A stretch of DNA of 55,498 nt from a virus: positions 1 through 55,498 of the IMG/VR virus record IMGVR_UViG_3300042946_000772; one strand, 5' to 3'. This document shows positions 41,532 through 54,494 of the stretch, one piece after another; positions within the stretch are counted from its first letter, which is position 1; each line of letters starts with the position of its first letter. Position numbers and translations under genes: made by a program. Under the pieces are notes generated by a model, which was not told where the DNA came from, did not search any database, and saw only the letters and a program-made list of their open reading frames with translations.

Positions 41532-41543
41532 TATTATATCAGG
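41532..41543 (-). promoter_or_regulatory. Array promoter, copy 13
   Basis: CCTGATATAATA on the minus strand; the leader is CCAACGACGACATACGGAGG. Confidence 0.75.
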
Positions 41544-41552
41544 AGGGAAAAG

Positions 41553-41622
41553 GACCGGCGCGCCAAGAGAGCGAGTCGATGTCACCGGGGGAAGTGACAG
41601 GTCGCATACTCTCGGCGCGCCG
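41553..41622 (-). terminator. Large two-part hairpin after the Cys-rich microprotein
   Basis: CCGGCGCGCC at the left pairs with GGCGCGCCGG at the right, extended by GAGAG/CTCTC. Inside is GTCAC-N8-GTGAC. It lies between the stop at 41632 and promoter copy 13. Confidence 0.65.
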
Positions 41623-41631
41623 GGGTCTGTG

Positions 41632-41721
41632 TTAGCGGCGTCTGCCGCCGCACCCTCGATGACCGCAGCCTCCACAGAAGCCACCGGAGCTGCAGGCGCA
41701 CCCGCAGCTGCCCACGGTCAC
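41632..41721 (-). CDS. Cys/Gly-rich microprotein (29 aa)
   Basis: The GTG at 41721 overlaps the stop of the upstream gene as GTGA, which supports translation. The whole product is 'MTVGSCGCACSSGGFCGGC' followed by GHRGCGGRRR: six Cys, nine Gly and one His in 29 residues. That is a good metal-binding or redox-active composition. A very strong hairpin follows. No family can be assigned at this size. Confidence 0.5.
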   Translation of the reverse strand: MTVGSCGCACSSGGFCGGCGHRGCGGRRR

Positions 41722-41921
41722 CACCACCTCTCGCACGCCTCGCGACGGAATCGCGCGCGGAACTCCGGGTCGCAGTCGCTGGCGAGCTGGGAGATGATGT
41801 CCTGGATCGCCTCGCGGATCATGTCCTCGCCGTACTCGGCGGCGACGTCGTGCTCGCAGTCGCGGAGGGCTTCGCGCGCCTGCTCGATCGTAGTGTACGT
41901 GTACTGCGTTGCCTTTGCCAT
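41718..41921 (-). CDS. Helical array protein (67 aa)
   Basis: The ATG at 41921 follows GAAGGGACACGGAA. The product is mainly helical with acidic and basic patches ('EQAREALRDCEHDVAAEYGEDMIREAIQDIISQ'), two Cys, and ends CERWW. Function unknown. Confidence 0.65.
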   Translation of the reverse strand: MAKATQYTYTTIEQAREALRDCEHDVAAEYGEDMIREAIQDIISQLASDCDPEFRARFRREACERWW

Positions 41922-41951
41922 TTCCGTGTCCCTTCGTCGTTGGCGTAGTAC

Positions 41952-41963
41952 TATTATATCAGG
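41952..41963 (-). promoter_or_regulatory. Array promoter, copy 14 (carries a stop codon)
   Basis: CCTGATATAATA on the minus strand. Its TGA ends the gene at 41959. Confidence 0.75.
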
Positions 41964-42240
41964 CGCCTTGAAGGCACCTGATCTCGTACGCTTCCCACAG
42001 GTCGAAGGTCGCCTCGAAGTCTCCGGTCTCGTGGTAGAAGCCCTCGAGCTTAGGCAGGTCGCCCCAGATGCTGGCAACGAGCACGGCCGAGCGCCATCCG
42101 ATCTCATCGGTGGGGTCGACGCAAGGGCATTCCCTGACGAACGCTTCGGCGAGGCCGCTGTACGGGTTGGTGCGATCGCCAGCCTCGACGTACCCTTCGC
42201 CTGAGCAGGCGACGCAGTTGGCGGTGATGGTGTCAGTCAT
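41959..42240 (-). CDS. DnaJ-type zinc-finger-like protein (93 aa)
   Basis: The ATG at 42240 follows GAAAGGACACCTC. Residues 8-20 are 'ANCVACSGEGYV' (C-x2-C-x-G-x-G as in DnaJ zinc repeats), with 'ECPCVDP' about 25 residues later. The second half is acidic and aromatic. It could be a chaperone-like or RNA-binding small protein. Confidence 0.65.
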   Translation of the reverse strand: MTDTITANCVACSGEGYVEAGDRTNPYSGLAEAFVRECPCVDPTDEIGWRSAVLVASIWGDLPKLEGFYHETGDFEATFDLWEAYEIRCLQGA

Positions 42241-42272
42241 GAGGTGTCCTTTCGTCGTTGGTGCGTTGGAAC

Positions 42273-42284
42273 TATTATATCAGG
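42273..42284 (-). promoter_or_regulatory. Array promoter, copy 15 (carries a stop codon)
   Basis: CCTGATATAATA on the minus strand. Its TGA ends the gene at 42280. The leader is CCAACGACGAAAGGACACC. Confidence 0.75.
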
Positions 42285-42528
42285 CAGGCCCGTCGCGCCA
42301 GGAGTCGTACGGATCCGTGTAGTCCTCGGGTGAATCGATCTTCCGGTCCCACTCGTACTCGCACACCGTGCACACGCAGGAGTCCACGTCGTCGTATCGG
42401 TGCAGCGTCGTGACCACGTGCAGGGTCGGCTTCTCGCACTCGGGGCAATCGAGGGTCTCCTCGGTCTCCGCGTACGGGCCGGCGATCTGCCACTCGTTGC
42501 CGGTGACGCCGGGCGGGTAGTTGCTCAT
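42280..42528 (-). CDS. Zinc-ribbon protein (82 aa)
   Basis: The ATG at 42528 follows CAGGAGGAAACCG. It contains 'DCPECEKPTLHVV' and 'SCVCTVCEYEWDRK', two Cys pairs in a classical zinc ribbon as seen in TFIIS/DksA-like small proteins. It is acidic outside the ribbon. A role in transcription control is possible but not shown. Confidence 0.7.
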   Translation of the reverse strand: MSNYPPGVTGNEWQIAGPYAETEETLDCPECEKPTLHVVTTLHRYDDVDSCVCTVCEYEWDRKIDSPEDYTDPYDSWRDGPA

Positions 42529-42560
42529 TCGGTTTCCTCCTGTCGTTCCGTCGTTGGAAC

Positions 42561-42572
42561 TATTATATCAGG
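42561..42572 (-). promoter_or_regulatory. Array promoter, copy 16
   Basis: CCTGATATAATA on the minus strand; the leader is CCAACGACGGAACGACAGGAGG. Confidence 0.75.
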
Positions 42573-42576
42573 AGGG

Positions 42577-42636
42577 CCGGCCCGGAGAGGGACGGGACGA
42601 AAGGACGGACGAAACAACCGTCCCTCTCCGGGCCGG
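42577..42636 (-). terminator. 19-bp hairpin after the VWA gene
   Basis: CCGGCCCGGAGAGGGACGG and its exact reverse complement flank a 21-22 base loop. It begins four bases after the stop at 42640 and ends four bases before promoter copy 16. Confidence 0.8.
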
Positions 42637-42639
42637 TGT

Positions 42640-44502
42640 CTATGCGGCGTTGCGCGTGCCCGCGTTGGTGAGCTGGCGGGCTGCCGCCGTGCCGATCTCG
42701 GTCGCGGCCTTCGCCGGATCGAGGTAGCCCGGGATGATCGCGGCACTCGCCGTGCCGATGATCTCTTTGGCGTAGTAGTCAGAATCGAACGGCAGCCACA
42801 GGACTGCGACGCCCGCCTGGTCGCACCGCTGCACCCAGCGGCGAGCGTTCCGCTGCTCGGTCGGCGTGTAGCACCCGTCACTGACGATGACGAGCAGACG
42901 CGCGCCGGTGCCGTGCAGCAGGTTGAGCCCGCCGTCCAGCGCCTTGAAGGCATCGTCGAAGCGCTCCGTGCCGTCCGGTGCAGTGTACACGTGCACCTCG
43001 GACAGATGCTGCCCAGGCTTGAGCGTGGGGAACACGCCGCTGCCGTAGTACACCATCGCCGCGCGCGCCTGGATGCGACGAGCCGCCTCGGACATGACCC
43101 ATGCCGTGACTGCCATCGGCTCCATCGCCGAGCTCATGCTGCCGGAGATGTCGACCATGACGCCGATGTTGAGCGTCGGGTCGTCGGTGTGCTTGCGCGC
43201 CGTGCGACGCCAGGGCTCGATCTCGGCGCGGATGCCCTTCGACTTCAGAGCGGCGCCCTGCACCATTGCGCGCGTGCGCAGTCGACCGGGAGGAAGAACC
43301 GAGTGAATCTCGACCTCGTCACGCTCACGGTACTTCGCCTTGTCGAGCATCTGCGCAACTCGAACTGCTGCCGCGCGTTCCGGACCGGTGGGCGGACGCG
43401 TCGCAACGAGTCGCGACGCGGACCTGCTTGTTGCGGATGGGCCGGTCCCCTTGGCGAAGAGCTTCGAGGCAGCGGACTCGTGCTCGCGGCGCTCGGTGCT
43501 CGCGGAGCTGCGCGCCTTGACCTCGCGGTCCCACTCCTCTGCCATCTGCTGATCGGCGGCGTCGTCCGCGGCTGAGATCGCGACCATGTCGCGCATGTCC
43601 TCGAGCGCGTCGAGGATGTCGCTCATGCTGATGCCGGAACCTTCGCCTTCACCTTCGCCGGACTCACCGGTGCCTTCACCTTCGCCGGACTCACCGGAGT
43701 CACTCGGATCGCCAGACGTGCCGGACGTGCCACCGGGTGTTCCGGTCTCGCCCTTCTCCTTGGCGCGCTCCTTGAGAAGCTCGACCCAACGGTAGGCGAG
43801 GCCGTACATCGACTCGACGTTGTAGTGATTGGCGTGAGACTGGAAGGTGAGCCAGATGCTGCGGAGCTCCTTCATGAGCTCGGCGCCCAGGTGTTCGTCG
43901 ATGATGCCGATGACCTCATTGACGTCGTCGCGATCGAGAACGCCGGCGTCAACGCGAGCGTGAAGCAAACCAGCGAGGTGCGCCGCGTTCCAGGTGTCGA
44001 GCTCAGCGCCCGGGTTCTCGCGAATGTCAGCAAGGACAATGTCGAGCGCACAGGCGCGAAGAAACGCGCGGTTGCTCGGGATCTCGCGAACGCCCCATGC
44101 TTCGATGCGGGACTCCTCGAGAAGCGTAAGCGCCTGGTAGACACGAGCAGGAAGCTCGGCGATCGCGGCGTCAAGGTTCCAGCGCGAGTAGCGAGCGTGC
44201 AGTGCCTCGTGGAAGATGGCGCCAGCGGCGCGCGGCCAGTCAAACTGCGTATCGCGCTCGCGCAGGTCGCCAATAAACTCTGGCGACACTGTGCCGAAGG
44301 CGACGTCGACGTTGACCTCGACCTCGGCGAGCTTCGGGTTGTAGCATGCGGGCGCTGGTCCGCCGGCGCCAGGTCCGACGTATGCGACCAGGTCGCTGCG
44401 TCCTGCCCAGGTGTTCACCAGCTCGCCGAGCTGGGCGCCAGTGCGCAACCACTCGGAGGGCGTTGCCTCCGCGCGGGTGACGCTGTGCTTGATGTGCGCC
44501 AT
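42640..44502 (-). CDS. VWA-domain protein with HExxH metallopeptidase-like motif
   Basis: This 620-aa protein starts at ATG 44502 after GAAAGGACACGGAC. Near residue 95 it has 'AGAIFHEALHARYSRW', an HExxH motif as in DUF2201-type putative metallopeptidases. Residues 240-300 are a Gly/Glu/Ser-rich linker. The C-terminal 200 residues are a VWA domain with MIDAS 'MVDISGSMSSAM' and 'VIVSDGCYTP'. The gene before it encodes a MoxR-type ATPase, its usual partner. Such pairs remodel or insert metals in target complexes. In phages CobS/CobT-like pairs are known but poorly understood. Confidence 0.75.
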   Translation of the reverse strand: MAHIKHSVTRAEATPSEWLRTGAQLGELVNTWAGRSDLVAYVGPGAGGPAPACYNPKLAEVEVNVDVAFGTVSPEFIGDLRERDTQFDWPRAAGAIFHEALHARYSRWNLDAAIAELPARVYQALTLLEESRIEAWGVREIPSNRAFLRACALDIVLADIRENPGAELDTWNAAHLAGLLHARVDAGVLDRDDVNEVIGIIDEHLGAELMKELRSIWLTFQSHANHYNVESMYGLAYRWVELLKERAKEKGETGTPGGTSGTSGDPSDSGESGEGEGTGESGEGEGEGSGISMSDILDALEDMRDMVAISAADDAADQQMAEEWDREVKARSSASTERREHESAASKLFAKGTGPSATSRSASRLVATRPPTGPERAAAVRVAQMLDKAKYRERDEVEIHSVLPPGRLRTRAMVQGAALKSKGIRAEIEPWRRTARKHTDDPTLNIGVMVDISGSMSSAMEPMAVTAWVMSEAARRIQARAAMVYYGSGVFPTLKPGQHLSEVHVYTAPDGTERFDDAFKALDGGLNLLHGTGARLLVIVSDGCYTPTEQRNARRWVQRCDQAGVAVLWLPFDSDYYAKEIIGTASAAIIPGYLDPAKAATEIGTAAARQLTNAGTRNAA

Positions 44503-44543
44503 GTCCGTGTCCTTTCGTCGTTGGTGTTTCCGTCCGTGAGCAC

Positions 44544-44555
44544 TATTATATCAGG
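44544..44555 (-). promoter_or_regulatory. Array promoter, copy 17
   Basis: CCTGATATAATA on the minus strand. The leader has CACCAACGACGAAAGGACACGG. Confidence 0.75.
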
Positions 44556-44563
44556 TGCCCTGT

Positions 44564-44603
44564 GAGGGGCGCCAACCAACCAGCCAGGTGGTCGACGCCC
44601 CTC
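44564..44603 (-). terminator. Hairpin after the MoxR-type gene
   Basis: GAGGGGCG and CGCCCCTC pair around a 24-base loop. It lies between the stop at 44623 and promoter copy 17. Confidence 0.6.
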
Positions 44604-44622
44604 GGCGCGAAGATACCGGAGG

Positions 44623-45618
44623 CTAGATCTTCGCGGGTCGGCACTCGTCGCCGAAGACCCGAGTAAAGACGTCCGCAACGACGGGGCGGTCCATCTCCGG
44701 GGCAGCGGCCAAGAGGTTCGCGATCGCGAACTTCGTGCCGAACATCTCGGACAGATCACGGAAGGCGAGCAGCTCGCGCATCTGCGGAGCCCAGCTCACC
44801 TCCGAGCTCTGCTGCTTCTTGCTCAGGTTCTGCGCCGCAGTCACGATCTGCGCGGGAACGCCGAGCTTCTTGGCGAGACCCCAGTCCGTGGTCATCTCCA
44901 CCTGGATCGTGAAGCGGGACAGCAGAGCCTCGGACAGTCGAACGCCGGGAGCGTTCGGATTGGTGGCGGCGATGACGTAGAACCCGTCCTCCGCGTGAAC
45001 CACGCCGCGCTCAGGGTTGGCGGTCACGTTGTACTCGCGGCGGCCGTCCATGAGGCCGTACACGATCGACAGCACCTTCGGGTCGATGAGACCGATCTCG
45101 TCGATGAGGAAGGGCTTGCCTGACGCGGCAGCCTTGAGCAGAGGGCCGTCCTCCCAGACGAAACCGCCGGACGGAGTCTGCACATAGCCACCGACCAGGT
45201 CGGCGACCTCCGTGTCGCCGGAGCCGAGCAGCGTGAAGGCGTCGTCAAACGCCGCCTCGACCAGTGCGGTCTTGCCACAGCCAGGCGCGCCGTAGAGCAA
45301 GACAAACTGCATCGCATTGCGCGCCTTGCGCAGAACCTCGACGTCGTCGTGCTCACCCCACTTGCGGGTGTGGTACACGTCGCCGTTCGGGCGAAGGTAC
45401 GTCGAGCTGCCGGTGAGGGCATCGGCGTTGATCACGACAGGCGCCTTCTTGGTCGCGTGCCGCTTGGTCGCGCGGCCCTGGGTCTCGATCATACTATCGA
45501 GTATGTCGTCCAGGTGAGGGTTGGCGGACTGCACTCCGGCAGCCGCGATGATCTCGGCGAGGTGTGTGGTGCTCGGGTCCTCGACGAGCTCCTCGAAGAC
45601 TGTGCTGGGAATTGCCAT
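44623..45618 (-). CDS. MoxR/CobS-type AAA ATPase (331 aa)
   Basis: I choose ATG 45618 after AAAAGGACGTGATCCCC. The ATPase core has Walker A 'GAPGCGKTA' near residue 112, 'DLVGGYVQTPSGGFVWEDGPLLKAA', Walker B 'PFLIDEIGLI' and 'YVIAATNPNAPGVRLSEALLSRFTIQVEM' (sensor 1 and arginine-finger region). The N-terminal 90 residues are a separate helical domain. It probably powers the VWA/HExxH protein encoded next. Each gene has its own promoter. Confidence 0.85.
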   Translation of the reverse strand: MAIPSTVFEELVEDPSTTHLAEIIAAAGVQSANPHLDDILDSMIETQGRATKRHATKKAPVVINADALTGSSTYLRPNGDVYHTRKWGEHDDVEVLRKARNAMQFVLLYGAPGCGKTALVEAAFDDAFTLLGSGDTEVADLVGGYVQTPSGGFVWEDGPLLKAAASGKPFLIDEIGLIDPKVLSIVYGLMDGRREYNVTANPERGVVHAEDGFYVIAATNPNAPGVRLSEALLSRFTIQVEMTTDWGLAKKLGVPAQIVTAAQNLSKKQQSSEVSWAPQMRELLAFRDLSEMFGTKFAIANLLAAAPEMDRPVVADVFTRVFGDECRPAKI

Positions 45619-45666
45619 GGGGATCACGTCCTTTTCGTCGTTGTGGCTGGTGCGCGGTGCTAGTGC

Positions 45667-45678
45667 TATTATATCAGG
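45667..45678 (-). promoter_or_regulatory. Array promoter, copy 18 (carries a stop codon)
   Basis: CCTGATATAATA on the minus strand. Its TGA ends the gene at 45674. The leader is CACAACGACGAAAAGGACG. Confidence 0.75.
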
Positions 45679-46144
45679 AGGCGAAGAGGGCCTCGCCGAA
45701 GCCGAGCGCGCGACGGACTCGAGTGATGCGGGCAACCACCTTGTACGGCGTCTTGCCCTGGCGAACATCGTCCATGTCCTGAGCAGTCACCTCGACGATC
45801 ACCGGCTTCTTGTAGAGCTTCCAGCCACGGGACGACAGGTTGACGAGCGTCCCCTCCATGAACTCGAAGCGGGAGAGTCCGAAGGCGTGCGCTGAATCGT
45901 CGGCAATCGCCGGGCGAACACCGTGCCATGGCTCGGCAACTGCGGACGAGGTCTTCCACGACTTGCGCGGAGCATCGGCGCTGATCTGCCGGCGGTACAG
46001 CGTGTGGGGAACGTAGACGCCCATCGGGTTGTGGCCGTCCGGCATCAGAATCATCTGAACCGTCCACGAAGCCTTGCGGAACTCGAGGTAAACGGCCTTG
46101 CCGGTCACGACGGCCTTGCCGGTCGCGTCGGTGGCTGAATTCAT
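45674..46144 (-). CDS. Unknown protein upstream of the ATPase (156 aa)
   Basis: The ATG at 46144 follows GAAAGGACACGGAA. It is a basic, beta-rich protein: 'KAVYLEFRKASWTVQMILMPDGHNPMG', 'HAFGLSRFEFMEGTLVNLSSRGWKLYKKPVIVEVT'. The order (this gene, then ATPase, then VWA) suggests it may be a third component or substrate of the ATPase pair. That is inferred from gene order only. Confidence 0.65.
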   Translation of the reverse strand: MNSATDATGKAVVTGKAVYLEFRKASWTVQMILMPDGHNPMGVYVPHTLYRRQISADAPRKSWKTSSAVAEPWHGVRPAIADDSAHAFGLSRFEFMEGTLVNLSSRGWKLYKKPVIVEVTAQDMDDVRQGKTPYKVVARITRVRRALGFGEALFAS

Positions 46145-46192
46145 TTCCGTGTCCTTTCGTCGTTTCCGGCTCCTCCGTGCCGGCGTTGGTAC

Positions 46193-46204
46193 TATTATAT
46201 CAGG
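46193..46204 (-). promoter_or_regulatory. Array promoter, copy 19
   Basis: CCTGATATAATA on the minus strand. A GCCGGC hairpin and AACGACGAAAGGACACGG follow in the leader. Confidence 0.75.
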
Positions 46205-46218
46205 CGTGGTGAAGCAGG

Positions 46219-46440
46219 CTAGTCGACACCCACCGGAGCCACAACATTTGGTTCCGAGACGCGAAGACCGTTTAAAAGACGAGTTGTCGTCTCAAGCGAC
46301 AGCGTCGACTCCAGATGAGTATCGCCAGCCATTAACGTGACCAGCGCCAACTCAAGTACGTCCGTGCGGGAAAGCTTCACACCGCTGCGCTCAAGCTGCG
46401 CCTCAAGCGCGTCCGCGGCTGTCTCAACTCTCGTCTTCAT
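46219..46440 (-). CDS. Ribbon-helix-helix-like small protein (73 aa)
   Basis: I choose ATG 46440, since GGAG lies six bases before it; a GTG one codon upstream is possible. The sequence 'RVETAADALEAQLERSGVKLSRTDVLELALVTLMA' has the length and spacing of a strand followed by two helices. It resembles ParD/CopG-type proteins. It is the last gene of the run from promoter copy 20. Confidence 0.55.
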   Translation of the reverse strand: MKTRVETAADALEAQLERSGVKLSRTDVLELALVTLMAGDTHLESTLSLETTTRLLNGLRVSEPNVVAPVGVD

Positions 46441-46576
46441 CACTCACTCCAAGCATCCGCGCAAACATCTCACCATCAGGCTGCCGAAGAACAAGCTCAC
46501 GCACGCGTGCCACCTCCTCCGGTGACGGAGGCTCGATCTTGTCGAGAAGAATGGCAGCACTGTCGACTTTGCTCAC
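46424..46576 (-). CDS. Helical microprotein (50 aa)
   Basis: The GTG at 46576 overlaps the stop of the preceding gene (GTGA). The end overlaps the next start by 17 bases. The protein is acidic and helical ('SAAILLDKIEPPSPEEVARVRELVL', 'GEMFARMLGVSDEDES'). Coupling to both neighbours supports its reality. It may act with the RHH-like protein as a pair. Confidence 0.55.
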   Translation of the reverse strand: MSKVDSAAILLDKIEPPSPEEVARVRELVLRQPDGEMFARMLGVSDEDES

Positions 46577-47742
46577 TTAGCAATTTTAACACTTGCCAGG
46601 TTCGAGGCCGTCAACTCCGCCAGCTGTCGCAACGGCTCAAGAGCTTTAAGCTCAGCAGCAAGCCGGTCACGCTCCGCTGTCATCTTCGCGAGCCTGTCCT
46701 CGACGACCGCGATCCGCGCGGTGACCTCGCGATCGATCAGGCCGCTAACCGCCGCCGCGATGCCCGTCAGGTCTGCGCCAGCCAGGCCGGTGTCCGTCCC
46801 CGTCATCGCCGGCGTTGGCTCCTGCGGGCCGGACGTTGCACCAAACCGGGCCGCCCAATCAACCTCGAGAATCACGCCCGTCACAGCCTCGCGCTCCGTG
46901 CGGGCCGGTACCTCGCCCGGCGGCGCCCAGTACAGCATTGCGTGCGCGCCGGTTGCCGTGCCGCCTGCACGAAGATTTCGCTCGTCGGGAGACTCCTTCC
47001 GTGAAGAGATTTTCTTCTCCGCGAGAAGTTCCTTGATCGCGTTGCGAACCGTCGTGATCTCGTAGACGTAGTTCAGCTCCCGCTCAAGGTACTGCTGAAG
47101 CTCGAGCGCGGTCAACGGCTGAGACGAGTCCTCGAGAACGAGCTGCACCATGCCGACCAGGTCGACGTGCTCACGGGACCGCTTCTCTAGATACGGGCGA
47201 AGCTTGTCCACCGCCTCGGTCGACTTCGTCAGCGAGGCCGGCTCCATGAACCGAACCTCGACCGGCGCAGCAGGCCGGTCCTCGCCGACCTCCGTCGGAG
47301 TGAGCTGCTTCTCGCGCCGCGACAGGTACGAGTCCTCGCTGCGCGCCGCCATGCCGACGTGCACCGCGAGAACCTCGAGCCACTCGCCGCGAAGCCACCA
47401 GACAGGCCGCCGGCCTGAACCGGGCAGCGGCTGCAGCACGCACCGCGCGTTGCCGGATTTCTTGAGATACTCGTAGATCGGTGCGATGAACGCATCCATC
47501 TCGGGCCGCTTGTCGCTCGCCGCGAGCTCAGGCCACAGCCTGCACACGACACCGCGAAGATTCAGCTCGCCCGCGATACCCGGCATGCCGTCAAGCGAAT
47601 GAGGCTTGCCGCCGCCGTCCGCGAGCAGAGAGTGAGCTCGCGCCCACACCAACCAGCTTTTCTGTTCGATCGCCGCGTCGCGGGCCTCGGCGGCATCTCT
47701 GCCGGTGATGGAGACTCGGGCGGTAGATGAGAGTCGTGCCAT
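46573..47742 (-). CDS. Winged-helix and coiled-coil protein (389 aa)
   Basis: The ATG at 47742 lies behind CGAAACGGACTACGCC. Residues 1-160 are alpha/beta ('VSITGRDAAEARDAAI', 'ARCVLQPLPGSGRRPVWWLRGEWLEVLAVHVG'). Residues 190-260 look like a winged helix ('LVGMVQLVLEDSSQPLTALELQQYLERELNYVYEITTVRNAIKELLAEKKI'). Residues 320-385 form a coiled coil. It is probably a DNA-binding regulatory or partition-like protein. No catalytic site was found. Confidence 0.6.
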   Translation of the reverse strand: MARLSSTARVSITGRDAAEARDAAIEQKSWLVWARAHSLLADGGGKPHSLDGMPGIAGELNLRGVVCRLWPELAASDKRPEMDAFIAPIYEYLKKSGNARCVLQPLPGSGRRPVWWLRGEWLEVLAVHVGMAARSEDSYLSRREKQLTPTEVGEDRPAAPVEVRFMEPASLTKSTEAVDKLRPYLEKRSREHVDLVGMVQLVLEDSSQPLTALELQQYLERELNYVYEITTVRNAIKELLAEKKISSRKESPDERNLRAGGTATGAHAMLYWAPPGEVPARTEREAVTGVILEVDWAARFGATSGPQEPTPAMTGTDTGLAGADLTGIAAAVSGLIDREVTARIAVVEDRLAKMTAERDRLAAELKALEPLRQLAELTASNLASVKIAK

Positions 47743-47792
47743 GGCGTAGTCCGTTTCGTCGTTGTGATGCCGGCCGTCGTGCCGGTAGAGCC

Positions 47793-47804
47793 TATTATAT
47801 CAGG
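47793..47804 (-). promoter_or_regulatory. Array promoter, copy 20
   Basis: CCTGATATAATA on the minus strand; a leader with CACAACGACGAAACGGA follows, then the 389-aa gene. Confidence 0.75.
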
Positions 47805-47985
47805 TGAGTGAGCAGTTTCCACCAGCACGTGCTCAGGTGCTCTCTCCAAAGAGAGCCTCGCAAGGGCCGGAAGCCGAAGGAGGGGCGGGCAGTTTAACTA
47901 TCACTCATGCCCCGAGGAGCGGAGAGGTTTTAGTCGCCGGCTGGCCATACTCTCGTCAGGGGCCGACGGAGCTTTTATTGCTCGT
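47805..47985 (-). ncRNA. Candidate non-coding RNA 1, from promoter copy 21
   Basis: No frame longer than a few codons is open on the minus strand behind the promoter at 47990. The segment contains GCTCTCTTTGGAGAGAGC-type and CGACGAGC/GCTCCGTCG hairpins. The first of these lies at the expected 5' end. No leader of the shared coding type is present. I infer a structured RNA of up to about 180 bases. Confidence 0.4.
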
Positions 47986-47989
47986 CGAC

Positions 47990-48001
47990 TATTATATCAG
48001 G
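47990..48001 (-). promoter_or_regulatory. Array promoter, copy 21 (no coding gene downstream)
   Basis: CCTGATATAATA on the minus strand. It is followed by GTCGACGAGC, not by the coding leader. Confidence 0.7.
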
Positions 48002-48002
48002 T

Positions 48003-48113
48003 AGGTGAAGCAGGCCACCGGCCAGCTCGCGATTGCGCCGCAGACTGACCGAGCGGTTCCGACTCCCACGGAACACCGCGACGGATTCACAGTCCGCTGG
48101 CCCTGCTTCAATT
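48003..48113 (-). ncRNA. Candidate non-coding RNA 2 with closing stem and tRNA-like arm
   Basis: TGAAGCAG (48006-48013) and GGCCAGC (48020-48026) pair exactly with GCTGGCC (48096-48102) and CTGCTTCA (48103-48110). Inside are GCGGTTCCG/CGGAAC-ac-CGC and a small arm with loop CTGTGAA on the minus strand, which looks like a His(GTG) anticodon arm. There is no good T arm or CCA end, so it is not a normal tRNA. A promoter sits directly upstream and no coding frame is seen. Confidence 0.45.
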
Positions 48114-48115
48114 GT

Positions 48116-48127
48116 TATTATATCAGG
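48116..48127 (-). promoter_or_regulatory. Array promoter, copy 22 (carries a stop codon; no coding gene downstream)
   Basis: CCTGATATAATA on the minus strand. Its TGA ends the LuxR-type gene at 48123. It points into candidate RNA 2. Confidence 0.7.
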
Positions 48128-48527
48128 TAGTGAGACCGAGGGCCTCGGCGGGGGGCGAGGCGGGAGGCGAATTGCCAAGATCAAGCAAGCCCCACTCACG
48201 GGAACGAATCACTGCCGCGTCGCGCCCGCTTACGCCAAGCGCGCGATAGATCGAGATCGTCTCCTGACGAACAGTCGACTCGCTGAACCCGAGCTCCCGC
48301 GCGATCGAGCCATTCGTCTTGCCAAGAGACATCATGTGAACAATCTGAAGCTGCCGATCCGACAACTCGTTGGACATGGTCCAGTACAGAATGGATTCAC
48401 GAAGAAAGTTATACGTGTCGCGGCCGTGCCGCAGCGAAACAACTCCAGAATCTGAATCGACGTCAACAACTTCTCCGGAGAATGTCATCGCTTCTCCATT
48501 ATTGAACTTAACTGTAAATGTGCTCAT
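48123..48527 (-). CDS. LuxR-type HTH regulator (134 aa)
   Basis: The ATG at 48527 follows GACGGAGTTCGAA. Residues 1-50 are a small beta domain ('FTVKFNNGEAMTFSGEVVDVDSDSGVVSL'). Residues 54-112 are a LuxR/GerE-type HTH: 'ELSDRQLQIVHMMSLGKTNGSIARELGFSESTVRQETISIYRALG'. It has no receiver domain. It probably controls phage promoters; the repeated ACCGGT sites lie just upstream. Confidence 0.75.
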   Translation of the reverse strand: MSTFTVKFNNGEAMTFSGEVVDVDSDSGVVSLRHGRDTYNFLRESILYWTMSNELSDRQLQIVHMMSLGKTNGSIARELGFSESTVRQETISIYRALGVSGRDAAVIRSREWGLLDLGNSPPASPPAEALGLTT

Positions 48528-48605: not shown

Positions 48606-48640
48606 ATTATCAGAGGAAATCTAACTTCAAAGCCTAAAAA

Positions 48641-48692
48641 CGGTCAAATAACCGGTCATACAACCAAATGACCGGTCAAATAACCGGTCATA
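48641..48692. repeat. Direct repeats with ACCGGT palindromes (operator-like)
   Basis: CGGTCAAATAACCGGTCATA occurs at 48641-48660 and again at 48673-48692, a 32-base period. The cores are TGACCGGTCA and AACCGGTCA palindromes. They lie upstream of the LuxR-type promoter and within the 3' end region of the small genes before it. They are good candidates for a binding array. Confidence 0.75.
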
Positions 48693-48703
48693 GCGCCAAA
48701 TGA

Positions 48704-48787
48704 CTAGCCGCGACGATGCAACTCCGCCAGCAAAACGACAAGCCCGGCCGCGCCCGTCACCGTCAAAATAAACTCGGAAACGCTCAT
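48704..48787 (-). CDS. Tiny membrane peptide (27 aa)
   Basis: The ATG at 48787 overlaps the stop of the upstream gene (TGATG). The product 'MSVSEFILTVTGAAGLVVLL' followed by AELHRRG is one hydrophobic helix with a charged tail. This is typical of small phage membrane peptides. Without a database match it remains a candidate. Confidence 0.45.
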   Translation of the reverse strand: MSVSEFILTVTGAAGLVVLLAELHRRG

Positions 48788-48942
48788 CAGGCCGGCGACA
48801 GATGCTGCAACATGTACGCAATCCGAGCCGCTTCATTCGCACGAGCCGTCACGCGAATATGCTCCTCACGAGTCTTTGCCTGCTCAACGTCCGCCGCCAG
48901 CTCATCCGCGAGCTGCCGAGCCGCTGCCGCCGCCTCCGTCAT
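48787..48942 (-). CDS. Helical microprotein (51 aa)
   Basis: I choose ATG 48942 because GGGAG lies nine bases before it; an ATG three codons upstream is too close. The product is Ala/Glu-rich and helical ('AARQLADELAADVEQAKTREEHIRVTARANEAARIAYML'), probably a coiled coil. It follows the small-terminase-like gene. Function unknown. Confidence 0.55.
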   Translation of the reverse strand: MTEAAAAARQLADELAADVEQAKTREEHIRVTARANEAARIAYMLQHLSPA

Positions 48943-48943
48943 G

Positions 48944-49870
48944 TCACTCATCTCCCTCGCCGCCAGCTTCCTCTTCAACAACCTCGACGACCTCCGCGTC
49001 AACGATCTCCGCCGACTCGCCGAGCGCGCCAGCCACCGCCACCGCTCCAGCCGCCAGCCGCTGCAACCGCTCCAGCACAATCGCCTCGGCCGGCCGGCCG
49101 TCATTCACCTCAACACGAGCATCCAGCTCCACGCCGCCGCGAACACCCGCCCGGTCAAGGATCTCCGTGCTCGCCTTCAAGCGAACCGGCTCCGAGGAGG
49201 CGTTCTCCATCAAATCCTCGAGAACGTCCACCGCGTACGGCGCCGCCTGCGTAAGCTTCTCCCGAGCCCGCTCCACGTCATCGCCAGGCCGCTTCTTCGT
49301 CGACCGCAGATGCACACGGCACAGACCGTCATCCTTCGGCCGCCCGGAACTCCACAACAGACAACGAATCCCATCATCCTTGATGTGGCGGCACCGATGA
49401 GGAAGAGCGGTCGGCTGCTTCTTCGGGTTCGGCTGACCACCCGCCTCCTGCTCCGCAATCCACATTTTCGTCGCGCCCAACACCCACGGAGGAACCAGGT
49501 AATCCGACGCGGACTCCACAACGAGATCCAAACCCGTCAAGTAATCCGAGTTCGGAGCATCGGGGTCAACCATGATCGGACGCCGCTGCGACAACGACAT
49601 CACTACACGGGACTTCTCCTGCTCAGGAGAGCGAGCCTGAATCAACCCGGTCGGCGCGCCATTCGCCGCGAACACGGGAACCCAGTTCATCTTCGCCTTG
49701 CGCAAAACCCGCCGATGCTCAAACGTGTCCTCACACACGCCGCGCTCAACTTCCTCAATCCCGAGATCACTCAGAATCGGGCGCATGTCAAACGCTTCAT
49801 CGATCACAGGCAGCGCACCCGCGGCATCCTCATCGGACACCGAGGCCGGAAGCGCATCACTCACGAGCAC
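48944..49870 (-). CDS. Putative small terminase subunit (308 aa)
   Basis: The start GTG at 49870 has no strong ribosome site; a GTG two codons later is possible. Residues 130-170 hold 'HRCRHIKDDGIRCLLWSSGRPKDDGLCRVHL', a Cys/His zinc-like site. Residues 195-240 ('AREKLTQAAPYAVDVLEDLMENASSEPVRLKASTEILDRAGVRGG') match the helical domain of many actinophage small terminases. The C-terminus is very acidic. It would recognise phage DNA for packaging. No large terminase lies next to it here. Confidence 0.6.
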   Translation of the reverse strand: MLVSDALPASVSDEDAAGALPVIDEAFDMRPILSDLGIEEVERGVCEDTFEHRRVLRKAKMNWVPVFAANGAPTGLIQARSPEQEKSRVVMSLSQRRPIMVDPDAPNSDYLTGLDLVVESASDYLVPPWVLGATKMWIAEQEAGGQPNPKKQPTALPHRCRHIKDDGIRCLLWSSGRPKDDGLCRVHLRSTKKRPGDDVERAREKLTQAAPYAVDVLEDLMENASSEPVRLKASTEILDRAGVRGGVELDARVEVNDGRPAEAIVLERLQRLAAGAVAVAGALGESAEIVDAEVVEVVEEEAGGEGDE

Positions 49871-49973
49871 AAAGGTAACACGAGTCTGCGCAAGCGGACA
49901 CAGGGGACTCGAAAGATTTTGGCGAGAGAGGAGCGAGACCGCCTCGCTTAGAACCCTGCACTAACAGTAGCTC

Positions 49974-50018
49974 CCGGGGAAGTTGCCCGTTGAGGCGTAC
50001 TGCTTCAACTTCCCCCGG
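49974..50018 (-). terminator. Hairpin after the endolysin gene
   Basis: CCGGGGAAGTTG and CAACTTCCCCCGG form a 12-bp stem with one bulge. A second imperfect hairpin (CCTCC/GGAGG) lies between it and the stop at 50084. The rest of 49871-50083 holds no gene I can support. Confidence 0.65.
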
Positions 50019-50083
50019 AAACAAGAACACCTCCGGCCTCGAGGTTACCGAGGGCGCGGAGGCGTCTTGCTGGCAGAACTAGC

Positions 50084-51010
50084 TTATGGCTTGTCCTTGC
50101 CGAACAGGCGGACCCAGGTCTTGCGATCCGGGCGACCCGTCTGCTCGAGAGCTTGATCCTTCTGGAACTTCTTGTACGCGTTCATCGGCCACCGCTGCTC
50201 TCCTGCTGGGAGCGAAATCTCTTTGCGGAAGCCAAGGTCATGCAGGCGGCACGCGGTGCGCCAGGCTGCGAGGTTGGCCATGTTCCCGTCGATCGCTCGC
50301 TGAGCTGCAGCCCGGCTCGGGATCGTCTTGTCCCAGGTCTCAGGACGAGCGTTCGCTCGGTACTTGGCAGCGTGCTCACGCCAGAACACGGGGTTGTAGT
50401 TCTCTGCCACCTTGGACCCTGGGTACTCAGACCAGGCCTTGTGCAGCGTGTCGCCCTTACGCCCTAGGAACGGCGACGGACCCTTCGGATTCACCCCGTA
50501 GGAACCGTCCGTCCACGCCTGGTGAGTGATGATCCGCTTGTCGTCCGGCCACTCGCACAGGTCCCAGAGCGCTGCCGCGGTTCGCGAAGCATTCTCGATC
50601 TGATAGTCCGTGAGTGTGGTGCCGCGGCCAGGGTCATCGATCTCGATACCGAACAGCTGATGATGCCCAACATTCGCGGCACGGTTGATCCCGATGGCCG
50701 GAAACGGCCCACCGTCACCGGAGTGGTACGAAGGCTTGGCCGACAGCAGGTACGTGTCGCCGGGTCCGCGTCCGATGAGCATGTTTGAGATCGCCCAGTC
50801 GTACGTGTTCGCACACCAGTAGAGCGTCGGCGCTCCGCTGTTCCCGGTCGCGGATGCCGTTGCCGTGTTGTGCATAACGATGCCGTCGAGACCACCGCCC
50901 TGCGAACCCCAGGTACCGCCGCGAGTGTCCCAGCGGGTGTAGGTCTTGAGGTCGACGCCGTGGTCGCGAAGTGCGGCGAGAAGCTGTGAAGGGGTCGGGT
51001 GATTGCTCAT
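50084..51010 (-). CDS. Endolysin: N-acetylmuramoyl-L-alanine amidase with wall-binding end
   Basis: The ATG at 51010 overlaps the stop of the preceding gene. Residues 40-190 form an Amidase_2/PGRP-type domain with 'GIVMHNTATA', 'PSYHSGDGG', 'NVGHHQLFGIEIDDPG' and 'IITHQAWTDG', which supply the zinc His residues. The C-terminal 90 residues resemble a peptidoglycan-binding domain ('WPMNAYKKFQKDQALEQTGRPDRKTWVRLFG'). It cuts the amide between muramic acid and the peptide to release phage. It is the last gene of the lysis cassette. Confidence 0.85.
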   Translation of the reverse strand: MSNHPTPSQLLAALRDHGVDLKTYTRWDTRGGTWGSQGGGLDGIVMHNTATASATGNSGAPTLYWCANTYDWAISNMLIGRGPGDTYLLSAKPSYHSGDGGPFPAIGINRAANVGHHQLFGIEIDDPGRGTTLTDYQIENASRTAAALWDLCEWPDDKRIITHQAWTDGSYGVNPKGPSPFLGRKGDTLHKAWSEYPGSKVAENYNPVFWREHAAKYRANARPETWDKTIPSRAAAQRAIDGNMANLAAWRTACRLHDLGFRKEISLPAGEQRWPMNAYKKFQKDQALEQTGRPDRKTWVRLFGKDKP

Positions 51011-51144
51011 GCGTCCGGCTCCTGGTCGAGATCCTCAACGTCGGAGGGTTCCGGATCGGCGTCGACAACTTCAGGTGACCAATCCGCGGGAGGTTCGGTC
51101 ACCTCGATGTCGGCGGCGTCAATGTTGGCTTCGTCGTCACTCAC
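51007..51144 (-). CDS. Acidic microprotein in the lysis cassette (45 aa)
   Basis: The GTG at 51144 overlaps the stop of the holin-like gene (GTGA) and its own stop overlaps the endolysin start (ATGA). The product is almost entirely Asp, Glu, Pro, Ala and Val and is probably disordered. The tight coupling suggests a real gene, perhaps a regulator of holin or endolysin. Confidence 0.6.
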   Translation of the reverse strand: MSDDEANIDAADIEVTEPPADWSPEVVDADPEPSDVEDLDQEPDA

Positions 51145-51365
51145 TTGGATCCACCGCCATAGCGGGTGTCCTTCGGGTTGAGCCAGTTGATGACGACGGG
51201 CACCGCGCTTGCAAGACCGGCGATGACCCAGGTCTGCCAGGAGGCGAAGTTGATGGTGCCCTTGGACACGAAGTCGGCGATCGCCATGGAGAGCACGATC
51301 GCGATGAAGACCTTGACAGCCGAGGCGAGCGGGCTTACGGCGAGCCAGTTCTCGAACTTTTCCAC
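51141..51365 (-). CDS. Holin-like membrane protein (74 aa)
   Basis: I choose GTG 51365 because AAGGAG lies six bases before it. There are two membrane segments, residues 10-32 ('LASAVKVFIAIVLSMAIADFV') and 40-60 ('TWVIAGLASAVPVVINWL'), with a Lys/Gly-rich end. The size, topology and place just before the endolysin match phage holins. It would form the membrane lesion that starts lysis. Confidence 0.75.
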   Translation of the reverse strand: MEKFENWLAVSPLASAVKVFIAIVLSMAIADFVSKGTINFASWQTWVIAGLASAVPVVINWLNPKDTRYGGGSK

Positions 51366-51441
51366 TGAGTTCTCCTTAGGAGCGTTGCGCGTCATCCGCG
51401 CACTCAGCTATCTTAGTCCGATCTCGAGTTCCCGATGTCTC

Positions 51442-51633
51442 TTACTCGTCTCGAAGAAACTCTTCTGGCACGACAAGCTCGCCCTCGAGCATGGTCTCGT
51501 CGATGATCACATACTCGCCGTCGGGCCATTTCGCGAGACCAGACAGCTCCTCGGGGTGCTCCTGTTTCATGTGCGCGAGAACGGCTTTGACGTCACCTGA
51601 CTCGTCGAAGAACTCGCAGAATCCGCAAGCCAT
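51442..51633 (-). CDS. C2H2-like zinc protein (63 aa)
   Basis: I choose ATG 51633 because CTGGAGGATGAATCC precedes it; the frame is open further but overlaps the upstream gene. The start is 'MACGFCEFFDESGDVKAVLAHMKQEH', a C-x2-C...H-x4-H finger. An acidic tail follows. Possibly a DNA- or RNA-binding regulator. Function not known. Confidence 0.6.
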   Translation of the reverse strand: MACGFCEFFDESGDVKAVLAHMKQEHPEELSGLAKWPDGEYVIIDETMLEGELVVPEEFLRDE

Positions 51634-51688
51634 GGATTCATCCTCCAGCAGGTACGCGAGAGGTCGGTACCCGTCGCGGGTTGCTACT

Positions 51689-52174
51689 TTACACTGCTTC
51701 GCGACAGCCTGGGCAGAGGAGCACATCGTAGCCGGTCGGGTAAGAGACTCCCACACCGTTTGAAGTAACCGCCGCAGGAACCACATTCGCGTCCTCCGCT
51801 CCGCATCGATCGCACACCAGGTCAACAAGCCATCGGGCGTTTCGCCCTTTCTGCGCGAGCCCGACAAGGCCGAGCGACAGCGCGTGCATTGCGCCGGAGC
51901 CTCCGGTTCGCCTCAGGAACGGCCGAGTGTCATCAACCTCGATGACGGCGCGCACCTTCTTGCACGGGCACTCCATACGCGTAGGCTTACAGTACACAGC
52001 TCCGTTAGTGACGGTGTGTCTTGAAACTCCGTGCCCACAGACGCAGATCCGCCCGTCTCGTCCGTGCGCTGGTCGCACTCGCAGGTTCTCGTCAGCCTCC
52101 TCGGCTTCCTCCATCGAGATCCCCATGCTTGCCAGCATCTCTTCCGGCGTCATCATCTTTTCGTCGTCACTCAT
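51689..52174 (-). CDS. Two-ribbon zinc protein (161 aa)
   Basis: I choose ATG 52174 because CGGGAGAAAAA precedes it. The N-terminal 35 residues are acidic. 'ICVCGHGVSRH' and 'YCKPTRMECPCKK' follow, then 'VCDRCGAED' and 'LLCPGC' near the end, which together suggest two metal sites. It contains no enzyme motif. It may be a transcription-related or recombination-related small protein. Confidence 0.65.
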   Translation of the reverse strand: MSDDEKMMTPEEMLASMGISMEEAEEADENLRVRPAHGRDGRICVCGHGVSRHTVTNGAVYCKPTRMECPCKKVRAVIEVDDTRPFLRRTGGSGAMHALSLGLVGLAQKGRNARWLVDLVCDRCGAEDANVVPAAVTSNGVGVSYPTGYDVLLCPGCREAV

Positions 52175-52214
52175 TTTTTCTCCCGACTCTGCGTCGCCTG
52201 TCTCTGACAAGTCA

Positions 52215-52223
52215 ACTATAGCA
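52215..52223 (-). promoter_or_regulatory. Extended -10 promoter of the 161-aa gene
   Basis: TGCTATAGT on the minus strand (TGnTATAnT), about 40 bases before the chosen ATG. Confidence 0.55.
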
Positions 52224-52280
52224 TAGTTTTCTCTTCTAGTACACTAAGAGATACTTGAAACTTTTGCTAAAAAATAATCA

Positions 52281-52382
52281 ACTAATCATAAACCCGTTAA
52301 CGAGACTATTTCTGAGATAGGGCCCACGCTACACGTATACGCGTATTAGAAAGATAGTCTCGTTAATAGTTTTAAGATTAGT
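52281..52382. repeat. 29-bp imperfect inverted repeat with exact 13-bp core
   Basis: The left arm 52281-52309 and right arm 52354-52382 match as reverse complements at 25 of 29 positions. The inner 13 bases, TTAACGAGACTAT, are exact. The 44-base centre contains the palindrome CGTATACG and GGGCCC. Confidence 0.8.
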
Positions 52383-52612
52383 AGTTTAGTTCCGTACTGC
52401 ATCACTTTTTCTTTTCGCTGATTTCGTTTTCTCTTAGTACGTCTCTTCGCCGCTTTCTCCCCCGAGTTCATATAGTGAATCATAGACATTAGTGCGCGAT
52501 GGTGCGCAATGGTGAATGGTCTCGCGGCTAGAGAAAGTTTTTGATTTACTTTTTGTCGTCAGTATGTTTCGCGCGTAACTGATAGTTAAACTTTTTTATT
52601 TGTAAACAAGCA

Positions 52613-52630
52613 GACTTCTACACAGAAGTC
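52613..52630 (-). terminator. Hairpin after the thioredoxin-like gene
   Basis: GACTTCT and AGAAGTC pair around ACAC. It lies about 40 bases after the stop at 52669; TGCTTGTTTA follows on the minus strand. Confidence 0.55.
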
Positions 52631-52668
52631 GACCCCAAAATAAAATAAATAAACTAGAGAGTCTACTT

Positions 52669-53022
52669 CTACCCGCGCGAAAGCGTGCCGTCGAGATCCT
52701 CGAGTATGGCGTACGCCGGGCGCGCTCCTACCATTTCCCGTACACGAATCTCATAGGAGTAGAACAGCGTCGTGGGCACGGCAGTGACGCGCATGCGTCG
52801 CGCAAGCAGCACGTCGTCTTCGGCGTCGACTCCGTAGATGATCGTGTCGAGTCCCGTGCGTTCGCGTACCTCGTCGCTCACCTCGCGCAGGGTCGCCCAG
52901 TAATCGGCGCACGAAGGGCACCAGGTCGCATAGAACACGACGGCGATGAGTTTATCCCTCCCATCTCTTAGCGCCGTCTCGAGCCCTCCGTGTTCGAGGG
53001 GCACGTATCTCGTCTCCGTCAT
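52669..53022 (-). CDS. Thioredoxin-like protein (117 aa)
   Basis: The ATG at 53022 overlaps the stop of the membrane protein gene (ATGA). It has the redox centre 'VVFYATWCPSCADYW' near residue 35 and cis-Pro 'RVTAVPTTLFYSY' near residue 80, with the thioredoxin strand order. It would reduce or shuffle disulfides. Its length is normal for a single thioredoxin domain. Partners may include the Cys-rich phage proteins. Confidence 0.8.
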   Translation of the reverse strand: MTETRYVPLEHGGLETALRDGRDKLIAVVFYATWCPSCADYWATLREVSDEVRERTGLDTIIYGVDAEDDVLLARRMRVTAVPTTLFYSYEIRVREMVGARPAYAILEDLDGTLSRG

Positions 53023-53159
53023 CGCCGGCTTCCTCGCGCTCTCGCGGTGACGATTTCCGCCAGTCCGACACCGGCTAGTACTCCTAACCCGAGAGCGCAT
53101 CCTCCGAGAAGAAGGATGGCGGTACGGTTACGGCGCACCCCTCGAGCGCTCTTACTCAT
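53019..53159 (-). CDS. Single-pass membrane protein (46 aa)
   Basis: The ATG at 53159 lies inside the end of the upstream gene. Residues 12-35 are one hydrophobic helix ('AILLLGGCALGLGVLAGVGLAEIV') flanked by Arg-rich ends. It is coupled to the thioredoxin-like gene. The positive ends fit insertion with either orientation. Function unknown. Confidence 0.65.
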   Translation of the reverse strand: MSKSARGVRRNRTAILLLGGCALGLGVLAGVGLAEIVTARARGSRR

Positions 53160-53424
53160 GAAGATGTTCCAGGAGCCCGAGATGTGACAGGGCTGACCCA
53201 AGGCAGCTCGCGCACAGTAGTATACGCATGTCTGGCTCTCCGGCGAGTTGGCGTTCAACGTTGTCGACCGCCATCCCGTAGCCTCCATGCACCTCCACCC
53301 AGGCGGCGTCTGCATATTGATATACGCGCGCCCCGGGCGATCCCTCCGGGTAGACAAGCTCAAGCTCGCGAGCGCACGTGTCGCATCGCCGCGTCTCTCC
53401 CGACGCGCTTGACTCAATAGCCAC
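53152..53424 (-). CDS. Zinc-ribbon protein, leaderless start (90 aa)
   Basis: The GTG at 53424 is six bases from TATAAT, so the mRNA is probably leaderless. The protein has 'RCDTCARELE' and 'LLCASCLG' Cys pairs about 50 residues apart, enough for a zinc ribbon. It is acidic. It starts the three-gene run that includes the thioredoxin-like gene. Confidence 0.65.
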   Translation of the reverse strand: MAIESSASGETRRCDTCARELELVYPEGSPGARVYQYADAAWVEVHGGYGMAVDNVERQLAGEPDMRILLCASCLGSALSHLGLLEHLHE

Positions 53425-53427
53425 CTG

Positions 53428-53439
53428 CTCATTATATCA
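53428..53439 (-). promoter_or_regulatory. Extended -10 promoter (leaderless type)
   Basis: TGATATAATGAG on the minus strand holds the array core TGATATAAT. Only GAGCAG separates it from the GTG at 53424. Confidence 0.6.
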
Positions 53440-53441
53440 TT

Positions 53442-54494
53442 CTAGACTGTTCGTAGCAGGCGAGGTACCTTACTTACTGGTAGCCAGGCGACCCATGATT
53501 CGATGTCGCCTCTCCCAAGCGTCACGACAAGGTTCCCGTCTCGTACTCCGATGCCCGCGGCGAACTCGATTCCCGCTCCGGCGAATTGGAATGGTTCACT
53601 GATCGCGGTGATGTTTCCCGACTCGTCGAAGCGCGCAAGAAAGTGGTGATAGTCCTTGTGGCAGAAGTCGACGTTTCCGAATCGGCGGCTGTCCCACATC
53701 TTCCCGCGCTTGGTTAGTAGCCGGTGCATGACGCCCAAGTACCCCCCGTTTCTACCCTTTTCTCCCACCTCCACCTCCGCCCAAGGGATCAAGTGCGTGT
53801 TTCCCCGTAGGCCGAGCGCCCAGTCGTCATCGTGCCCGAGCGCGGTGATCAATTCCCCTGAGCGGATCACGGCGTACGGCCCGTAGATGAAGTCGAACTG
53901 CTTCGAGTGTTCGTACATTGGCGCCATCCAGTTTTTCTCTGGTTTGACGCTCAGTGCACCAGGGTGCTTCACCATTGTTACTGCCCGCGCCTTGCGTGCT
54001 TCGATTTCTAGTTCGCACGTGACCTGGCGCGCGACGGGTGTGTGCCCGCGCTCAAGTAGAACACCGGTCATCATCCATTTCCCGTCACGGCGGTAAAGTT
54101 TCGCGTCTTCGATGCCCCGGTCTACTCGCATCCCTGTTTCGCGCGCGGCGTCGTCGAATGACACGCGGCGATAGTTTCGTAGCGACCAGCTATCCAGTGC
54201 CGGTTTCTTACCCGGCTTGTGCTCGAGGTCCGCGATGTAGACGCGATTTCGGATTGGGCCTCCGGTTGACACGTGCAGTTCACCGTGTTCGAGAATGACA
54301 TAGTTGCTGGAGCGCACGGCAACGAGCGTGTCTCCAGTCTCGGCAATACATAGTGATGGGTTGAACGCGGACCATTCAATGCTGCGCGCGCTGATGTAGC
54401 GTTCCATGCGAGCGACGTGTCCGCCGAACTTGGACCAGAGCGCGGGTGCTCCTTGTTTTTCCAGTGTTGTCGCTCCGGCCCAGACGCTAGGCAT
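53442..54494 (-). CDS. GH130-like five-bladed propeller protein (350 aa)
   Basis: I choose ATG 54494, overlapping the methyltransferase stop by eight bases. It has the GH130 pattern: 'FNPSLCIAETGDTLVAVRSSN', 'RNRVYIADLEHK', 'RGIEDAKLYRRDGKWMMTGVL' (the conserved I-E-D), 'KNWMAPMYEHSKQFDFIYG' and 'GIEFAAGIGVRDGNLVVTLGRGDIESWVA'. GH130 enzymes phosphorolyse or hydrolyse mannosides; some members are glycan-modifying. It sits with a methyltransferase and a pyruvyltransferase-like gene. Confidence 0.65.
   Translation of the reverse strand: MPSVWAGATTLEKQGAPALWSKFGGHVARMERYISARSIEWSAFNPSLCIAETGDTLVAVRSSNYVILEHGELHVSTGGPIRNRVYIADLEHKPGKKPALDSWSLRNYRRVSFDDAARETGMRVDRGIEDAKLYRRDGKWMMTGVLLERGHTPVARQVTCELEIEARKARAVTMVKHPGALSVKPEKNWMAPMYEHSKQFDFIYGPYAVIRSGELITALGHDDDWALGLRGNTHLIPWAEVEVGEKGRNGGYLGVMHRLLTKRGKMWDSRRFGNVDFCHKDYHHFLARFDESGNITAISEPFQFAGAGIEFAAGIGVRDGNLVVTLGRGDIESWVAWLPVSKVPRLLRTV

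Follow-up and report, generated by a model that had tools for sequence, protein, structure and literature searches.

A candidate noncoding unit at the head of a promoter array in a phage genome

A stretch of about 300 nt that consists of two parts, R1 and R2, heads an array of promoters in the window (the whole 55,498-base virus record analysed here), and we give roughly even chances to the reading that it is a functional noncoding unit, most likely transcribed as a structured RNA from the promoter at 48116-48128 (Table 1). If the stretch is functional, it is probably best read as RNA. Transcription of R1 from this promoter would start, judging by the distance from the -10 element, within a few nucleotides of the closing helix, the R1 RNA would fold as a four-way junction, and R2 would be part of the same transcript (as in the relative L124, see below) or, in the window phage, would also be made from its own promoter at 47990; both the transcription and the action as RNA are what we infer for this locus. 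In terms of the initial annotation of this DNA, R1 is the "second transcript" and R2 is the "first".

Table 1. Features of the R1/R2 region, in the order of transcription
Feature	Position in the window	Strand	Remarks
Array promoter, 24th by coordinate, first transcribed	48116..48128	-	extended -10 ACCTGATATAATA; version in L124 GCCTGATATAATA
R1, candidate RNA domain	48112 to 48003	-	MFE four-way junction closed by UGAAGCAGG/CCUGCUUCA; conserved in L124
Hairpin resembling a His anticodon arm, GCGGA-CUGUGAA-UCCGU	48081..48097	-	5 bp, 7-nt loop
Array promoter, 23rd by coordinate	47990..48002	-	not in L124
R2, noncoding stretch	47984 to 47806	-	5' and 3' parts conserved, middle strongly diverged
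Inverted repeat, perfect, 7-4-7 (GCTCTCTTTGGAGAGAGC), close to the 3' end of R2	47839..47856	-	identical in L124
Array promoter, 22nd by coordinate, serves the 389-aa protein gene	47793..47805	-	element scan and downstream ORF
389-aa protein gene, next downstream of R2	46573..47742	-	homologues in relatives

A scan for the 13-base element TATTATATCAGGT with up to 2 mismatches identifies 24 copies in the virus record, compared with a mean of 0.22 in shuffled sequences (n=100). All 24 elements are on the minus strand, span positions 31512-48128 and read RCCTGATATAATA or near variants, which we take to be an extended -10 of the TGnTATAAT type; inspection by eye indicates that GTACYAACGACG and a purine-rich start region often follow 3' of the promoters. 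An ORF of at least 45 aa begins 14-54 nt downstream of 22 of the 24 promoters, and the two exceptions, copies 48116 and 47990, are the first two in the order of transcription: the longest frame within 54 nt of the former is 32-33 aa (with ATG and GTG starts allowed), and no ORF is found within 54 nt downstream of the latter. These two copies, numbered 21 and 22 in the initial annotation and 23rd and 24th by coordinate here, do break the pattern of one promoter to one gene, as had been claimed. On the minus strand, promoter 48116 is followed by R1, promoter 47990, R2, promoter 47793 and the 389-aa gene, and R1/R2 is located between the endolysin side of the genome and the promoter array. Two of the array promoters, 46193 and 47990 (46193-46220 and 47990-48016), both have CCTGCTTCACC just upstream, as if one were a copy of the other; in L124, the stretch corresponding to 46193 reads CCCGCTCCACC.

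All the genes examined in the window are on the minus strand, those for the major head protein, portal, head-tail adaptor, endolysin and an AAA ATPase among them. The 389-aa protein matches neither Pfam nor PHROGs at E 0.001. In a noncoding stretch upstream of a LuxR-type gene, tandem inverted repeats on TGACCGGTCA/TGACCGGTTA occupy positions 48641-48691; they include a 10-bp hairpin with a T-rich tail, the tile that covers them (48619-48729) ranks fourth in stability among 499, and a repressor may use the repeats as operators.

A search with the 389-aa protein identifies two viral contigs, L123 and L124, that carry R1/R2. The first of these is the same phage (99.9% over 901 bases; identical across 47700-48200) and hence adds no information. 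L124 is a diverged relative, with 86% identity in the best segment of the 389-aa protein, and has the sole diverged version of R1/R2 found. The alignment of the window with L124 covers, among other stretches, 42543-48127 and 48708-55498; between these, the window encodes the LuxR-type protein whereas L124 has a 69-aa ORF with no nucleotide match, so that the upstream neighbour is swapped between the two phages and R1+R2 is retained. Promoter 47990 is missing in L124 (19 bases are absent in the alignment) and R1 is continuous with R2 as one unit. The two-promoter layout is therefore confined to the window phage, and the promoter was either gained there or lost in L124; the idea of two RNAs made from two promoters as a fixed plan fails for L124, which has one promoter and an unbroken R1+R2.

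In the comparison of the window with L124, 36 of the 290 sites of R1+R2 are changed, whereas the four-fold degenerate sites of the 389-aa gene are changed at 44 of 205 (Fisher one-sided P 0.005); the earlier suggestion of promoters that lack genes and lead into noncoding sequence is supported, and this sequence is conserved. By the same test, R1 alone has 11 of 111 sites changed (P 0.006) and R2 alone 25 of 179 (P 0.04). The changes are distributed unevenly. In R1, 9 of the 11 lie at the closing helix or close to it, and the three arms have 2 in 79 sites (P 2e-5); in R2, the 5' part has 3 changed sites out of 80 (P 8e-5), the middle 19 of 41 and the 3' part 2 of 57 (P 5e-4). The boundaries of these sub-parts were set after the changes had been seen, which makes their P values optimistic, and the test on the whole unit is weaker than the hand-picked sub-parts suggest. 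The conservation extends into the next promoter, with the 5' leader of the 389-aa gene likewise nearly unchanged in L124.

The predicted fold of R1 includes a closing helix of 9-12 pairs and three arms, in this order: the anticodon-like one, one with a 7-nt loop and a long one. The MFE of R1 is -55.1 in the window (z -3.05; more stable than 200 of 200 shuffles) and -57.6 in L124 (z -4.56), with the same topology. The MFE and centroid structures are concordant in L124 and discordant in the window, where the R1 ensemble is mixed and the probability of the anticodon-like arm is about 0.4, versus 0.86-0.97 in L124. Among 499 minus-strand tiles (2 of which overlap R1), 16 have z of -3.05 or lower and 4 have z of -4.56 or lower; the stability of R1 is in the top few per cent of the genome and is not unique. 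The highest stability of the 499 tiles relative to shuffles (z -6.4) belongs to 41515-41625, at promoter 41532. The differences between the window and L124 in the closing helix include A-U to G-U, C-G to U-G and G-C to U-A, which keep the pair, and others that break pairs. With two diverged versions to compare, covariation in the R1 helices is no better than expected from random substitution: 38 of 41 pairs are retained in L124, random mutants retain 36.4 on average and 405 of 2000 reach 38, and 530 of 2000 have an equally low MFE. On these predictions, the four-way junction is plausible, not proven. The 15-bp closing stem of the initial annotation (8+7, as reconstructed) is not favoured in either phage; its letters are present, and forcing the inner part raises the energy by 6.6 kcal/mol in the window and by 22.7 kcal/mol in L124.

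R2 shows no excess stability (z -1.3, with 21 of 200 shuffles as stable; z -0.56 and 56 of 200 in a second run), and the stretch that contains its 3' hairpin does not stand out in stability (z -0.97). The 7-4-7 inverted repeat in this stretch could be either an RNA hairpin or a DNA operator. By eye, R2 also contains a hammerhead-like CUGANGA string; the GAAA part is missing, Rfam gives no match, and this candidate was rejected.

Among the other explanations, the one that survives best is control at the DNA level, whereby the inverted repeats would be operators for a phage regulator (e.g., the 389-aa or the LuxR-type protein) and transcription would be incidental; we consider this somewhat unlikely. 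Its weight comes from the dyad-like motif that is present in relatives and from the perfect 7-4-7 dyad of the window and L124, which lies just upstream of the promoter of the 389-aa gene; the lack of excess RNA stability in R2 agrees with it as well. Homologues of the 389-aa protein are encoded in 37 of 85 loci and, after the removal of near-duplicates and short stretches, yield 25 upstream regions of 650 nt, L123 and L124 included. The motif CTTC[CT][GT][TA]GT[AGC] occurs 23 times in these regions, 16 of which have at least one copy, versus 11 copies in 416 kb of these loci outside the upstream regions, an enrichment that is a lead and not a test given that the motif was picked after reading the upstream regions and that the 25 loci are mutually related. 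In some loci it is part of a dyad (e.g., ACTTCTTAGTACTAAGAAGT), in some it reaches into the end of the ORF upstream, and altogether it resembles a set of operators or a family of small hairpins. Up to three copies of ACTTC[CT][GT][TA]GT... are found in L133, L134, L138, L149, L151, L155, L164, L168, L175 and L177; they lie between the homologue of the 389-aa gene and the gene upstream of it, which is lysin-like by eye in several loci, or at the end of the latter. However, the motif is absent from the 650 nt upstream of this gene in the window and in L124, which carry the 7-4-7 dyad instead. Furthermore, R1 is no simple dyad, its arms are conserved over 79 nt, exceeding the length of an operator, and two array promoters aim into R1/R2, where there is nothing else to express.

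Quite unlikely, in our assessment, is a boundary element, in which the hairpins of R1/R2 would stop transcription arriving from the lysis side and insulate the array, as terminators or as a cis-acting antitermination site. The location between the endolysin side and the array is compatible with such a role, and the hairpins 5' of the 24 array promoters have a mean z of -1.0, versus -0.1 at 200 random places (P 0.014). Nevertheless, a consensus scan finds no terminator-like minus-strand site within R1/R2, the 3' hairpin of R2 lacks special stability as noted above, and the promoter ahead of such an element would be unexplained.

The coding potential of R1/R2 was assessed by listing ORFs of at least 8 aa in the window phage and L124. 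Two short frames are open in both phages, namely a GTG frame at 48090 in R1 (32 aa in the window, 29 aa in L124) and an ATG frame in R2 (15 aa and 27 aa, respectively); the ends of both differ between the phages, and no Shine-Dalgarno sequence precedes either of them in either phage (five tetramers tried). A 39-aa TTG frame of R1 is closed in L124. The longest candidate, a 95-aa TTG frame, starts at 47849, crosses the next promoter and enters the 389-aa gene out of frame with it; the TTG frame is open and has GAGG at a fair distance upstream in both phages. Between the phages it carries 13 changes. Of these, 7 fall on its second codon positions and 8 replace a residue, and those inside the 389-aa gene follow the codons of that gene (4, 0 and 7 at positions 1, 2 and 3), which suggests that the frame is carried along and not selected. 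No frame accounts for the conservation of R1/R2 between the window and L124, and the claim that the stretch is noncoding withstands a check for a conserved short frame in the relative. A tiny peptide encoded by the 48090 GTG, R2 ATG or 95-aa TTG frame would fit with all three being open in both phages and with the GAGG before the last, but is very unlikely in view of the differing ends and missing Shine-Dalgarno sequences of the first two, the closure of the 39-aa frame in L124 and the second-position and protein-altering changes in the 95-aa frame.

The hairpin at 48081-48097 has, besides its 5 bp and 7-nt loop, the U33 and GUG of a His anticodon arm. In L124, the loop and the upper four pairs are identical, and the lowest pair, G-U in the window, is A-U. 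The His-like arm of the initial annotation is therefore present and kept in L124 save for the lowest pair, but its occurrence does not rise above chance: 57 comparable arms are found across the window, 3 of them with GTG. ARAGORN detects 0 tRNA genes in the window, and Rfam 15 yields 0 matches at the gathering score in the window and none up to E 5 over 47740-48180. As judged by eye from the sequence and fold, R1 has no T arm, the loop motif of which is UUCRANY, in cloverleaf order, and the anticodon-like arm comes first. The 16-mer core of the arm occurs in 56 stretches of genome contigs, versus about 120 expected by equal-base chance (257 Gb, both strands), and none of the 56 is inside a tRNA recognized by ARAGORN. 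A search of these 56 loci with the R1 covariance model produces nine weak matches at E up to 1, the best of which (21.4 bits, L259) is off the 16-mer; in L214, the model gives 21.1 bits at the 16-mer and 15.1 bits (E 0.64) over a tRNA-Tyr gene. These matches are taken as chance. That R1 is a derivative of tRNA-His or a tRNA mimic, for which the U33, GUG and A37 of the arm, the A-C-C after the closing stem, the identity of the loop and upper pairs in L124 and the single weak match on the tRNA-Tyr gene could be cited, is extremely improbable given the ARAGORN and Rfam results, the missing T-arm motif, the wrong order of arms and the chance-level frequency of the arm and its 16-mer, and the tRNA-derived reading is abandoned.

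The covariance models made for R1 and R2 match the window, L123 and L124. The search of relatives with such models, which had been proposed as a check, finds these two contigs and gives nothing convincing beyond them, with covariation at chance. When the models are run on 34 sources, the remaining matches are weak (E of at least 0.55 for R1 and at least 2.8 for R2). Two of the 80 loci with a relative of the AAA ATPase are the L123 and L124 contigs; in the rest, the R1 model has no further match up to E 2 and the R2 model reaches at most 14.9 bits (E 0.2), in L201 and L203. When the complete records of 50 loci are searched, the R1/R2 models match in 1 of 50, L124's own. A blastn search with R1/R2 finds no match in 50,697 phage records (at E 1) or in 72,556 plasmids, and exact 18-base core patterns of R1 and R2 are found, in viral contigs, only in those of L124 and L123. 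Given that these models and searches are convincing only in L123 and L124, the R1+R2 unit appears to be narrow in range. A literature search found no paper on the R1/R2 element.

By analogy, R1+R2 might work like the Pleft RNAs of mycobacteriophages L5 and D29, a possibility that we regard as rather doubtful. The Pleft RNAs of L5, D29 and relatives are described as the most abundant transcript, about 500 bp long and stable, with no ORF above about 30 codons, and are encoded at the right genome end of L5, D29 and StarStuff; they are toxic to M. smegmatis, and part of the region is seemingly needed for lytic growth (PMC5712189). The likeness would consist in a noncoding stretch of a few hundred nucleotides, without a conserved long ORF, that separates the first early promoter from the first early gene. 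If the promoter array is the early region, as we infer, the position of R1/R2 before the first array gene would fit the Pleft type. The Pleft phages are actinobacterial, and so is the window phage, judging by its relatives. R1/R2 is unrelated to the Pleft RNAs in sequence, with no blastn match in phages at E 1; it stands behind array-type promoters and is known from sequence alone. On the last 2.1 kb of D29, the R1 and R2 models give noise (best 5.4 bits for R1 and 6.1 bits for R2, the latter at E 0.07 in a small search).

Other actinobacteriophages offer further comparisons. Kampy is named alongside the Pleft phages (PMC5712189) and has expression peaks in noncoding regions (PMC4626039), and in the Rhodococcus phage WC1, RNA-seq identifies the highly transcribed intergenic noncoding regions nc_1 to nc_3 (PMC10986025); phage small RNAs are the subject of a review (PMC12197685). 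R1/R2 resembles the WC1 regions as a noncoding region of an actinobacteriophage, but those were measured by RNA-seq whereas R1/R2 was recognized in the genome sequence, and R1/R2 has no blastn match in the phage collection. Actinomycetia phage DSL-LC01 (OQ999401, L127) is the top match for the AAA ATPase in this collection (77.9% over 75% of the query) and has related genes in a similar order; it also has small genes behind a repeated TATAAT-type element. This element, approximately ATTCTAAAGATGTTATAAT (about eight copies by eye in 4.2 kb), differs in its upstream half from that of the window, ACCTGATATAAT. In DSL-LC01, 99 nt separate the endolysin gene from the homologue of the 389-aa gene, and there is no R1/R2 match in the whole record; the main text of the respective paper does not contain the words "promoter" or "non-coding" (PMC10611076). 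Several actinobacteriophages are reported to make abundant noncoding RNAs close to where early transcription begins, and these RNAs are still unexplained. R1/R2 would add a case, unrelated to them and from an uncultured lineage, that combines a unit defined by its sequence, a natural one- or two-promoter variant and two versions that can be compared, which makes its structure and role testable.

A bolder version of the RNA reading, which we consider unlikely, is that R1+R2 represents a new two-domain class of phage RNA, in which a four-way-junction RNA would be the first product of the 24-promoter array and would act in trans on the host or on the leaders that the array genes share. If so, promoter 47990 would be a case of spreading array promoters splitting one RNA into two that are made independently. 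With respect to the leaders, the predicted duplex energy of R1 with the 22 array leaders is below that of 40 of 40 mononucleotide shuffles; the comparison with genome tiles gives a weak hint, in that R1 pairs better than 144 of 150 random tiles, and 6 of 150 do as well. For R2, 15 of 40 shuffles are as low. The 7-mer TCCGTCG, which is present in both R1 and R2, is complementary to 4 of the 22 leaders.

As a minor observation on the rest of the array, strong hairpins (z -2.9 to -4.5) are located directly 5' of some promoters (31522-31579, 32764-32821, 37269-37326 and 44554-44611), one of them with a T run, as if some array genes had a terminator of their own.
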